Positions 36,379-40,834 of a stretch of DNA of 64,000 nucleotides are shown in pieces (within the stretch, counting starts at the first letter, position 1; each line of letters begins with the position of its first letter). The notes beneath the pieces were generated by a model. The model was not told the origin of the DNA. It did no database searches and saw nothing but the letters and a program-made list of their open reading frames with translations. The DNA is from Streptomyces platensis (GTDB taxonomy: Bacteria > Actinomycetota > Actinomycetes > Streptomycetales > Streptomycetaceae). The position numbers and the translations under genes are program-made. The stretch lies in NCBI RefSeq assembly GCF_008704855.1, contig NZ_CP023691.1, forward strand, positions 1,798,001 through 1,862,000, written 5' to 3'.

Positions 36379-39195
36379 TCAGCCCACCGACGAGTACGCC
36401 ACCACGCCGCGCAGCACCCCGTCCATGGCCTTGCGGGCCGTGCGGGCGACCGTGCCGCCGGGCGGGGCCGCGGCCGCGATCTGGCCGAGGACGTCGATCA
36501 GCTGCTTGCACCAGCGGACGAAGTCACCGGCGGGCATCTCGGCCTCGCGGAGCACCTCGTCGAGGCCGAAGCCGGAGGCCCAGCGGTAGGCGGCCCAGGC
36601 GAAGCCGAGGTCCGGCTCCCGCTGGCCGACGCCCTCCGCCTGGTTGATCTTGTGATCCTCCTCCAGCGCGTCCAGCCGGCCCCAGATGCGGACCATCTCG
36701 GCCAGTGCGTCCTTGGCCTTGCCGGCCGGCAGCTTGGGCGCCACCGCGTCATCCGCCTGCCGCGCCTCGTACACCAGCGCCGAGGCGCAGGCCGCCAGCT
36801 CGGCGGGGCCCAGCCCCTCCCAGACGCCCTCGCGCAGACACTCGCTCGCCAGCAGATCCAGCTCACCGTAGAGCCGGGCCAGCCGGCGGCCCTCGTCGGT
36901 GACGGTGTCGCCTTCGAGGTAGTCCAACTCGGTCAGCAGGGCACAGATCCGGTCGAAGGTACGGGCGATGGTGTTCGTCCGGCCTTCGATCCGGCGCTCC
37001 AACTGGCGGGTGTCGCGCAGCAGTCGCTGATAGCGCTCCGCCCAGCGGGCGTGGTCCTCCCGCTCGGCGCAGCCATGGCAGGGGTGCGCCCGGATCTCCG
37101 TACGCAGCCGGGCGATCTCACGGTCGTCGGCCGCCTCCGAACGGGGCTTGCGATGCCGCGACGGCACCATATGGCCGGCCTTCGTCCGCAACGCGGAGGC
37201 CAGATCGCGGCGCGACTGCGGGCTGCGGGCGTTGAACGACTTGGGGATCCGCATCCGGTCCAGCGCCTTGACCGGCACCGGGAAGTCGATCGAGGCCAGC
37301 CGCTTGACCTGCCGCTCGGCGGTCAGCACCAGCGGCCGCGGGCCGTCCTGCGCGTCGAAGCCGCGGTGGCCGTTCGTCCGCCCCGAGGGCATCCCGGGGT
37401 CGAGGACCAGTGCCAGGCCCGCGTACTTGCCGGTCGGCACATGGATGACATCGCCGGGCTTCAGCTTCTCCAGCGCCGCCGCGGCCGCCACCCGCCGCTG
37501 CGCCGCGCCCTGCTTGGCGAGCTCCGTCTCCCGGTCCTTCAACTGCCGCCGCAGCCGGGAGTACTCCTCGAAGTCGCCGAGGTGGCAGGTCATCGAGCCG
37601 CGGTAACCCTCCAGCCCCTCCTCGTTCTTCTGCACCTGCCGCGAGATCCCGACCACCGACTTGTCGGCCTGGAACTGCGCGAAGGACATCTCCAGCAGCT
37701 CCCGCGAACGGTGCCTGCCGAACTGCGAGACGAGGTTGACCGCCATGTTGTACGACGGCTTGAACGAGGACCGCAGCGGATAGGTACGCGTCCCGGCGAG
37801 CCCGGCCAGCGCGCCCGGATCCATCCCCCGCTGCCACAGCACCACCGCGTGGCCCTCGATGTCGATACCGCGGCGCCCGGCGCGGCCGGTCAGCTGGGTG
37901 TACTCGCCGGGGGTGATGTCGGCGTGCTGCTCACCGTTCCACTTCACCAGCTTTTCCAACACCACGGAGCGCGCAGGCATGTTGATGCCCAGCGCCAGCG
38001 TCTCGGTGGCGAAGACGGCCTTGACCAGACCCTTCAGGAACAGCTCCTCGACGACCTCCTTGAAGGTCGGCAGCATGCCGGCGTGGTGCGCGGCGATGCC
38101 CCGCTCCAGGCCCTCCAGCCACTCGAAGTAGCCGAGCACATGAAGATCGTCATCCGGAATCCCGGCCGTCCGCGCCTCCACTATGCGGCGGACCTGCTCG
38201 CGGCCCTCCTGGTCGTTGAGCCGCAGGCCCGAGGCCAGGCACTGCTGAACGGACGCCTCGCAGCCGGCCCGGCTGAAGATGAAGGTGATCGCGGGCAGCA
38301 GGCCCTCGCTGTCGAGACGGTCGATGACCTCGGGCCGGCTCGGCGTCCAGATACGCGCGCGCTGGCGCCGCTCACGCTCCCGGTCCGCCTCGCGCATATT
38401 GCGGCCCCGGCGCTTGTCCCGCCCGAACGTCGGCCGGCTGTTCTCCATCCGCGCCAGCCGCTCCAGATCGGGATTGACCTCACGGCGGCCGCCGCGCTGC
38501 CCGTCCCGCTCCTCGAACAGGTCATATATCCGGCGCCCCGCGAGGACGTGCTGCCACAGCGGCACCGGCCGGTGCTCGGAGACGATCACGGCGGTGTCGC
38601 CACGCACCGTGTCCAGCCAGTCGCCGAACTCCTCGGCGTTGGAGACCGTCGCCGACAGTGACACCAGCGTCACCGACTCGGGAAGATGGATGATCACCTC
38701 TTCCCAGACGGCGCCACGGAAGCGGTCGGAGAGGTAGTGCACCTCGTCCATGACCACATAGCCGAGGCCGACCAGCGACTGCGATCCGGAATAGAGCATG
38801 TTCCGCAGCACCTCGGTGGTCATCACGACCACCGGAGCCTCGGAGTTGACGCTGTTGTCGCCGGTCAGCAGTCCGACCTTCTCGGCACCGTAACGCCGGA
38901 CCAGATCCTGGTACTTCTGGTTGGACAGCGCCTTGATGGGCGTGGTGTAGAAGCATTTTCGGCCCTGCTCCAGGGCCAGGTGGACGGCGAATTCGCCGAC
39001 GATCGTCTTACCGGATCCAGTAGGAGCCGCGACCAGTACGCCCTGGCCGGCCTCCAGGGCCCGACACGCCTCGATCTGGAACGGATCCAGCCCGAAGTCG
39101 TACATTTCACGGAAAGGGGCGAGTGCGGTGGCCTGCTCGGCCGCCCGGAGCTTGGCGGCGGCATAGCGCTCAGCAGGGGACATGTCCTCGGTCAT
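36379..39195 (-). CDS. helY: DEAD/DEAH-box RNA helicase, HelY/Mtr4-like
   Basis: The 938-aa superfamily 2 helicase has motif I AAPTGSGKTIVGEF, motif Ia TTPIKALSNQKY, motif II MDEVHYLSDRFRG (DEVH), motif III SLSATVSN, motif V ETLALGINMPARSVV and motif VI QLTGRAGRRGID. A C-terminal DSHCT-type domain of about 150 aa is present. A central segment holds CHGCAEREDHARWAERY. It is related to the exosome helicase Mtr4/Ski2 and to mycobacterial HelY, and probably remodels RNA. The ATG at 39195 (MTEDMSPAERYAAAKL) is preferred; ATG 39183 is in frame. The upstream open frame is not coding-like. Confidence 0.93.
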   Translation of the reverse strand: MTEDMSPAERYAAAKLRAAEQATALAPFREMYDFGLDPFQIEACRALEAGQGVLVAAPTGSGKTIVGEFAVHLALEQGRKCFYTTPIKALSNQKYQDLVRRYGAEKVGLLTGDNSVNSEAPVVVMTTEVLRNMLYSGSQSLVGLGYVVMDEVHYLSDRFRGAVWEEVIIHLPESVTLVSLSATVSNAEEFGDWLDTVRGDTAVIVSEHRPVPLWQHVLAGRRIYDLFEERDGQRGGRREVNPDLERLARMENSRPTFGRDKRRGRNMREADRERERRQRARIWTPSRPEVIDRLDSEGLLPAITFIFSRAGCEASVQQCLASGLRLNDQEGREQVRRIVEARTAGIPDDDLHVLGYFEWLEGLERGIAAHHAGMLPTFKEVVEELFLKGLVKAVFATETLALGINMPARSVVLEKLVKWNGEQHADITPGEYTQLTGRAGRRGIDIEGHAVVLWQRGMDPGALAGLAGTRTYPLRSSFKPSYNMAVNLVSQFGRHRSRELLEMSFAQFQADKSVVGISRQVQKNEEGLEGYRGSMTCHLGDFEEYSRLRRQLKDRETELAKQGAAQRRVAAAAALEKLKPGDVIHVPTGKYAGLALVLDPGMPSGRTNGHRGFDAQDGPRPLVLTAERQVKRLASIDFPVPVKALDRMRIPKSFNARSPQSRRDLASALRTKAGHMVPSRHRKPRSEAADDREIARLRTEIRAHPCHGCAEREDHARWAERYQRLLRDTRQLERRIEGRTNTIARTFDRICALLTELDYLEGDTVTDEGRRLARLYGELDLLASECLREGVWEGLGPAELAACASALVYEARQADDAVAPKLPAGKAKDALAEMVRIWGRLDALEEDHKINQAEGVGQREPDLGFAWAAYRWASGFGLDEVLREAEMPAGDFVRWCKQLIDVLGQIAAAAPPGGTVARTARKAMDGVLRGVVAYSSVG

Positions 39196-39295
39196 CGTGC
39201 TTACGAGCCTACCGGCCACCTCTGACAACGACCCGATCTTTATGGCGGCCTTTGCCGGTGGCTGGTCGCCGGTTCGCCTACGGCGGGTGGGTGGC

Positions 39296-39710
39296 GGGTC
39301 GGAGGGGACGCCCGGTACCCCGTCCTCGGCGCGGGCGGCCCTGGTCCCGGAGGTAAGGCACCCCGGCGTTCGCTCCGGTCCTGCGGGCGGGGCACCGGAC
39401 ATCCCCTCCGACCACCGTCCGTACGCGGCCAACCCGCCGTACGGATCACCGTTACGGCAAGGCAGCGGCACCTCTTGGCAGGCAACTGGTCCCCGCAGCT
39501 TGGGCGCGGCCCGAGATGGGGTCTGTGACGGACGGTGCCACCGGGCCGCAGTCGGCAACGGGGGACGGTCGGAGGGCATGTACCGGGGCCCGCCCGCAGG
39601 ACCGGAGCAAACACCGGGGCAATCAAACGAACGCACCCGCGTCGCCCGCGCCGTGGGGGCACCTCCCGGCCGGAGGCTGGGGGAGGGCCCCGGTGCGTCC
39701 CCTCCGACCC
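39296..39710. repeat. Four alternating inverted copies of a GGTCGGAGGGGA motif
   Basis: Copies are at 39296-39320 (plus), 39392-39417 (minus), 39567-39590 (plus) and 39687-39710 (minus). The core is GGTCGGAGGG(G)AyG followed by CCGG. The second and third copies lie within longer arms of about 48 bp that include CTGCGGGCGGG and CTCCGGTCC, so they can fold into a large cruciform. Confidence 0.7.
39656..39685. repeat. GGGGGCACCTCCC-type dispersed repeat
   Basis: GGGGGCACCTCCCGGCCGGA followed by GGCTGGGGGA. From memory this is a common Streptomyces intergenic repeat. A similar copy lies at 50552-50583. Confidence 0.55.
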
Positions 39711-39794
39711 CCGCGGCAACCACGCAACCCGCAACGACGCCAGCCCAAACGCACCCGCACCGAAAGCACATGACGGATCGGCCGCGCCACCGAA

Positions 39795-39839
39795 GGGGCG
39801 CGAGGAACTGCGCGCCCAGCCACAACCCACCCGCAGCCG
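39795..39839. repeat. GGGGCGCGAGGAACTGCGCG-type dispersed repeat
   Basis: It starts GGGGCGCGAGGAACTGCGCG and ends with CCAGCCACAACCCACCCGCA. From memory this resembles one of the most abundant short repeats of Streptomyces genomes. It sits about 35 bp beyond the tatC stop. Confidence 0.55.
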
Positions 39840-39874
39840 AACTACAAGCGCCGACTACCCCAAGTCACAACCCG

Positions 39875-40834
39875 TCACGTGAAGTCGTCGTACCCATCAC
39901 GACGCCCCGCATCCCTCTCGCCCGCCTCACCACTCGCCTGCTCCGGCAGCATCCGCCCGGAGGCAACCGGCTCGATCTCCCCGACCTCGCCGGGCGTCAG
40001 ATCGAGCTCCGAGGCCTCGTCATCGCTCAGCCCCGCATCCGGGTTGCCGATCTTGCGGCGACGGTCGTTGAAGAGGCAGATGCCGGTGGCACCGAAGTAC
40101 AGCACCACGATCGGAGCGGCCAGCAGCCCCATGGTCAGCGGGTCACCGGTCGGCGTGGCGAGGGCCGCGAACACCGTGATGCCGAGCACCATGAACCGCC
40201 ACCAGCTCATGATCCGGCGGCCGGTGAGCACCCCGCCGAAGTTGAGCAGCACCAGGAGGAGCGGCAGCTCGAAGGCGAGGCCGAAGACCAGCACCATGCG
40301 CGTGACGATGTCGAAGAACTCGTCGGCGGGGAAGAGGTTGCCCCAGTTCTCGGGGGTCAGTCCGACCAGCGCACCCGCCGTGGTCGGCAGGACCGCGTAG
40401 GCGAGGTACGCGCCGCCCAGGAAGAGCGGGACACCGGCACCGACGAAGCCGAGTGCGTACTTCTTCTCGTGACGGTGCAGCCCCGGTGCGAGGAAGGCCC
40501 AGAGCTGGTAGAGCCACACCGGGGTGGCGAAGGCGACGCCGGTGGTGAGGGACACCTTCAGCATGATCGTGAACGGTGAGAGCAGACCGTTGGCGACGAT
40601 CTGGGCACAGGGGTGGTCGCGCGGAACGGACTGGCCCTTGGGACAGCCGACCGATGCGATGACCGGGCCCGTGACGAAGTCGGCGATCGCGTTGTACTGC
40701 CACATCGCGACGACAGTGATGACCATGATGGCCAGCACCGATTTCAGCAGCCGGTTACGCAGCTCACGCAGATGCGCCGCGAGCGGCATCCGCCCCTCGG
40801 GGTCCTTCTCCTGCTTGCGGGCAGACTTGAGCAA
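39875..40834 (-). CDS. tatC: Twin-arginine translocase subunit TatC
   Basis: The 319-aa protein has six transmembrane helices. Family signatures are MPLAAHLRELRNRLLKS at the N-terminus, FLAPGLHRHEKKYALGF, FGLAFELPLLLVLLNF and ATPTGDPLTMGLLAAPIVVLY. The C-terminal 65 residues are an acidic cytoplasmic tail typical of Streptomyces. TatC binds twin-arginine signal peptides and recruits TatA to export folded proteins. The start is TTG at 40834 with GAGGAAG upstream. The gene follows tatA by 63 bp; tatB is not in this window. Confidence 0.97.
   Translation of the reverse strand: MLKSARKQEKDPEGRMPLAAHLRELRNRLLKSVLAIMVITVVAMWQYNAIADFVTGPVIASVGCPKGQSVPRDHPCAQIVANGLLSPFTIMLKVSLTTGVAFATPVWLYQLWAFLAPGLHRHEKKYALGFVGAGVPLFLGGAYLAYAVLPTTAGALVGLTPENWGNLFPADEFFDIVTRMVLVFGLAFELPLLLVLLNFGGVLTGRRIMSWWRFMVLGITVFAALATPTGDPLTMGLLAAPIVVLYFGATGICLFNDRRRKIGNPDAGLSDDEASELDLTPGEVGEIEPVASGRMLPEQASGEAGERDAGRRDGYDDFT

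Follow-up and report, generated by a model that had tools for sequence, protein, structure and literature searches.

Repeats Between helY and tatC

The window, meaning the whole 64,000-nucleotide stretch of the Streptomyces platensis chromosome that was analyzed, carries tatC and a helY-type helicase gene on the minus strand, and the gap between them (39196–39874) contains several repeats. The whole stretch 39252–39836 proved to be one dispersed element of ~590 bp, the right end of which lies ~39 nt from the tatC stop codon. The features were as follows:

36379–39195, minus strand: helY-type helicase, downstream of the element (DEAD and DSHCT domains)
39252–39836, no strand assigned: whole dispersed element, window copy (query 57–641 aligns to other genomic copies)
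39252–39292, minus strand: left tail of unit 1 (from copy alignment)
39293–39415, minus strand: hairpin unit 1, of subtype A; the minus strand is the structured one and reads away from the spacer (structure and covariation)
39416–39564, no strand assigned: spacer, 149 nt in the window copy and longer elsewhere through ~45-nt repeats (copy comparison)
39565–39713, plus strand: hairpin unit 2, of subtype B; the plus strand is the structured one, reads outward, and bears the cassette (structure and covariation)
39654–39684, plus strand: 31-nt hairpin cassette in place of the 5 nt AGGAC of most units (long form in 17 of 80 units)
39714–39836, plus strand: right tail, ending in the GGGGCGCG...GCGCGCCC repeat and CCCGCAG (in 10 of 10 source-genome copies)
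39875–40834, minus strand: tatC (PF00902, E = 7.2e-62)

Both units are copies of one ~120-nt imperfect palindrome, set in opposite orientations. Copies of the 12-mer GGTCGGAGGGGA were located at 39297 (+), 39402 (−), 39567 (+, with one mismatch), and 39698 (−). The four alternating copies described in an earlier, sequence-only reading of this DNA were thus borne out over 39297–39709, and their order arises because the two hairpin units are inverted around the spacer. A chance origin of the gap repeats was set aside, since 2000 dinucleotide shuffles of 39196–39874 never gave more than one copy per shuffle. Motif copies 2 and 3 had also been placed in arms of about 48 bp; the arms are present, but the length was given too short, as 39361–39422 and 39558–39619 form arms of 62 nt that are 82% complementary. 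Inverted arms reach up to 165 nt. A coding origin was rejected in view of 1-nt indels between element copies, and ORFs spanning the gap were taken as GC-rich artefacts.

Two further Streptomyces-type repeats pointed out in the same gap were both found, one as the cassette at 39654–39684 and the other as GGGGCGCG...GCGCGCCC at ~39795–39822. The cassette (TGGGGGCACCTCCCGGCCG...CTGGGGGA) swaps for AGGAC at a single position in the 17 units that carry it, in several species and varied backgrounds with the stems intact, a distribution that suggests targeted insertion or conversion. The right-tail repeat GGGGCGCGGGGAACTGCGCGCCC (window 39795–39836) had a matching stretch in 58 of 150 genus genomes, own genome counted, and no name for it was found in the literature.

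Copies in the Source Genome and Distribution

The source genome (8,501,012 bases in one contig) was searched with the gap as query. Among 40 matches scored of 166 candidates, we identified eight further full-length copies, with 73–87% identity over approximately query 57–641, on both strands and scattered along the chromosome, together with one partial copy (L010). The same 40 matches included no autonomous partner with the same ends. In L010, the left end is joined straight to unit 2, as a deletion running from direct repeat 1 to repeat 3 would leave it; the orthologue of L010 in genome G389 (L063) is a full doublet. The source genome therefore holds nine full copies and one deletion-derived copy, and all ten align along their length once corrected for orientation. 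Within single elements, subtypes A and B differ consistently. The spacer of another G389 copy (L071, 1684–1969) contains a tandem array in which a ~45-bp repeat occurs 6.4 times, and the number of related repeats varies among copies. Mosaic arrangements occur at two loci of Streptomyces sp. NRRL F-4489 (L238 and L244), where inverted copies of the unit's own tail stand ahead of it, with GGAGGGG at the junction.

The element core was used as the genus query because whole-element searches were swamped by the small common repeat. It was present in 8 of 392 Streptomyces genomes, own genome counted. A covariance model, run with strict filters, matched 9 of the 392, one of them weakly (G348, a further weak member of the hairpin family). 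In an order-wide draw of 293 genomes, the model matched ten, all of them Streptomyces (one of nine genera), with G537 and G554 matching weakly. The latter two carry a distant hairpin family, with six copies in G554 (L283–L288), near-identical to each other, and two in G537 (L289–L290). This distant family has a different outer stem, retains the apical motifs and a U.G, G-C, U.G step, and showed no doublets. A pattern scan of GTDB returned 45 stretches, 40 from Streptomyces (S. inhibens, S. kronopolitis, S. albospinus, S. rhizoryzae, and Streptomyces sp. NRRL F-4489, CT34, MspMP-M5, and CB02959) and five from other genera; those five gave no covariance-model match. Overall, the element family is limited to a small number of lineages within Streptomyces.

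A phage or plasmid carrier was rejected, with no matches in phages or viral contigs and plasmids matching just 9–11% of the query. No Rfam family reached the gathering score in the window stretch or at five loci, where matches were weak and sub-threshold, and no published description of the element was found in the open-licence literature.

Gain of the tatC-helY Copy

The copy between tatC and helY was absent from all 29 relatives with a readable gap and also from seven other carriers of the element. In four relatives (G174, G190, G264, and G310), the gap is ~170–215 bases and holds a GC hairpin that, read by eye, resembles a terminator; in the source genome, the element stands in place of that stretch. 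At another own-genome site (L004), the element is absent from G293, which has 40 bases between the flanks compared with 660 here. At element-free sites, a short stretch had been replaced and no clear target-site duplication was seen; a whole-site search for L009 found no clean element-free site. In many other relatives the tatC-helY gap is ~1 kb, and in G036, G347, and G389 (L092, L148, and L149) its sequence, on reading, appears to encode one or two small proteins of secreted type.

Position Relative to Genes

A simple gene finder based on codon bias was used to call the flanking genes of 57 loci (25 doublets and 32 solos), a set that leaves out five named loci (L230, L234, L237, L239, and L252) and the whole-genome loci of G190, G264, and G174, strains represented by named loci. 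Every locus with both flanks called (n = 50) is located on the 3′ side of one or more genes, and none of the 50 lies in a gap between divergent genes, although shared sites are not independent. All 25 doublets face outward. With the structured strand taken as plus, both neighbors were on the minus strand at 14 solos, both on the plus strand at seven, and convergent at five, so that the structured strand often runs antisense to the adjacent gene, a misfit with a simple role as an mRNA 3′-UTR.

This placement, and the replacement of the terminator-like hairpin at tatC, would fit spare bidirectional transcription terminators that took the place of native ones. We searched for intrinsic terminators (a GC hairpin followed by a U-tract) and found none formed by the unit hairpins; the sole site, 39643–39630, is a different hairpin, with 0.5 expected by chance. 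The missing U-tract, together with a conserved apical domain and an outward orientation that termination alone does not need, makes this explanation improbable. No sigma-70-like promoter was found in the element.

Covariation and Strand Asymmetry of the Hairpin Units

Across 33 units, 98.9% of the 34 consensus pairs were paired, and 11 of the 34 showed changes on both sides. The covariation score was 0.245, compared with 0.101 after shuffling (reached in 0 of 500 shuffles) and at most 0.061 when the pairing was slid. A further 31 units, from strains not used for model building and aligned without structure, were 99.3% paired, with double changes at 13 of 34 pairs and a score of 0.315 (0.118 shuffled, at most 0.077 slid); in this set the measure of further pair types was not unusual (175 of 500 shuffles). 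Alignment A9 omits five distant rows and also L245:1278, in which five of the outer pairs are broken. Far from the single random match with no pairing kept in relatives that the sequence-only reading had weighed against itself, the motif belongs to a multi-copy element in which pairing is kept.

One-sided changes were strongly asymmetric when the strand was read outward from the spacer, with 142 G.U and 3 A.C cells in 48 units. In 40 units from five other strains, whose alignment was fitted to the model, the counts were 102 and 1, and in 80 units they were 184 and 1. Such cells are not independent, so events were also counted by parsimony on a FastTree tree, giving 13.5 changes from Watson-Crick to G.U, 1.0 to A.C, 20.9 double changes, and 21.2 to other mismatches. 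Orthologous positions gave 325 comparisons in which a pair had changed; the pair was still standard in 284, including 160 with both bases altered, and broken in 41.

A preference for G.U over A.C on one strand indicates that a single-strand structure is kept rather than a cruciform. The structured RNA proposed in the sequence-only reading is supported by this strand-specific covariation, and RNA is most likely the form in which the structure acts, although single-stranded DNA can produce the same asymmetry. Large cruciforms, also proposed there, are not supported as the selected state. A cruciform uses both strands, and a G.T on one is an A.C on the other, so extrusion of both strands should not produce a ratio of 184 to 1. 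The suggestion of a recombination or insertion hotspot stood in part, in that the element was gained here, half of L010 was lost by deletion between direct repeats, and copies are homogenized within genomes. Although arms of up to 165 nt, the L010 deletion, and the homogenization favor it, a DNA cruciform or recombination hotspot is a highly improbable account of the element.

Concerted Evolution at Shared Sites

Clustering of flanking proteins from the 57 loci identified 13 shared sites, each present in at least two and at most seven strains; the site beside meaB is common to seven. For units that could be matched by side, similarity to the closest unit at another site of the genome exceeded similarity to the orthologue in 126 of 136 comparisons, bearing in mind that choosing the best of many favors paralogues. 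The unit tree grouped largely by genome and subtype, and the sides occupied by the subtypes, agreed across species at those shared sites that were compared by eye on the tree. Copies within a genome thus undergo concerted evolution, and this homogenization blurs how many of the pair changes are independent.

Concerted evolution would also spread double changes, and the arms could in principle be kept complementary mechanically, by quasi-palindrome correction and gene conversion with no selection. Arm correction would, however, erase conserved wobbles, yet those at pairs 15–108 and 17–106 persist, and it offers no cause for G.U over A.C on one strand. We therefore regard a purely mechanical origin of the pairing as very unlikely.

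Comparison with Known Repeat Systems

The closest architecture is that of the REPINs or BIMEs, REP doublets mobilized by RAYTs, which share an inverted doublet of palindromic units with a spacer. REPINs are described as two palindromic units inverted around a spacer that are extragenic, occur as solos beside doublets, and show compensatory changes (PMC3116915). The unit here is ~120 nt compared with 20–40 bp for REP, copies number ~10 rather than >100, and the structure lies inside each unit. REP sequences bear a GTAG/CGTC tag, whereas no constant tag was seen by eye at the foot of the unit.

The small palindromic repeats of Streptomyces, namely the GGGGCGCG... repeat and the 31-nt cassette, both occur inside the element and are short; the former is genus-wide, whereas the ~120-nt unit is clade-restricted. 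ERIC and Correia/NEMIS sequences are described as intergenic palindromes of ~100–200 bp that, once transcribed, fold into long stem-loops and influence neighboring mRNAs, and the CIR repeats of Caulobacter and Brucella as a pair of long stem-loop arms with a linker between them (PMC2229807). The unit described here is likewise an intergenic palindrome of 100–200 bp with a predicted long stem-loop, although the composite is ~590 bp. Differences from ERIC and NEMIS include two units per composite, the actinobacterial host, strand-specific covariation, and concerted evolution; of the target-site duplication that goes with the terminal inverted repeats of such miniature elements, no clear case was seen at element-free sites. 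The layout of two arms and a linker resembles CIR, except that the arms here are inverted copies of one another; CIR repeats also have a link to GANTC methylation. By analogy, ERIC, NEMIS, and CIR would be nearest in RNA behavior.

The likeness to REPINs raises the possibility that the unit is a single-stranded DNA hairpin recognized by a single-strand transposase, its structure selected for mobility only. G.T pairs better than A.C in single-stranded DNA too. Inverted doublets, solo remnants, extragenic positions, and long residence are all shared with REPINs as described (PMC3116915). Y1_Tnp (PF01797) was nevertheless found in none of the 12 genomes searched, eight of them carriers, while a control was matched in 5 of 14. 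Long-resident copies retain intact stems, the long hairpin of motif copy 1 with copy 4 is not what covaries, and the subtypes differ consistently within an element. A REPIN-type hairpin is accordingly a rather unlikely reading, though one with some claim to attention.

A Candidate RNA Element Near Gene 3′ Ends

The best-supported description is of a vertically kept, homogenized, non-coding element. It is probably a clade-restricted dispersed element with outward-facing ~120-nt units that act as RNA near gene 3′ ends. The unit would act once transcription leaves the neighboring gene, and the transcript would fold into a long, GC-rich hairpin whose apical domain is conserved. Such a hairpin might serve as a 3′-end barrier, a stabilizer, or an RNase III-type substrate. 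Copies would be gained rarely, homologous gene conversion would keep them alike, and the window copy would have taken over the place of the terminator-like hairpin at tatC. Against this explanation, the hairpins have neither a sigma-70-like promoter nor a U-tract terminator of their own, the structured strand of solos is more often antisense, and pairs do break, with ~21 parsimony events to non-standard pairs. A more speculative and improbable extension is an RNA element that stays resident and rewrites its sister copies where they stand, their conversion being templated or guided by the hairpin RNA or by DNA copied from it. If true, this would account for species-specific, near-identical sequences at orthologous sites with the structure kept.

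Streptomyces is a much-studied genus, and these results add to it a structured element that shows strand-specific covariation and is apparently undescribed. They also offer a clear example, in bacteria, of concerted evolution in short non-coding repeats that are dispersed over fixed chromosomal sites, and they bear on how small repeats persist without a recognizable partner transposase.
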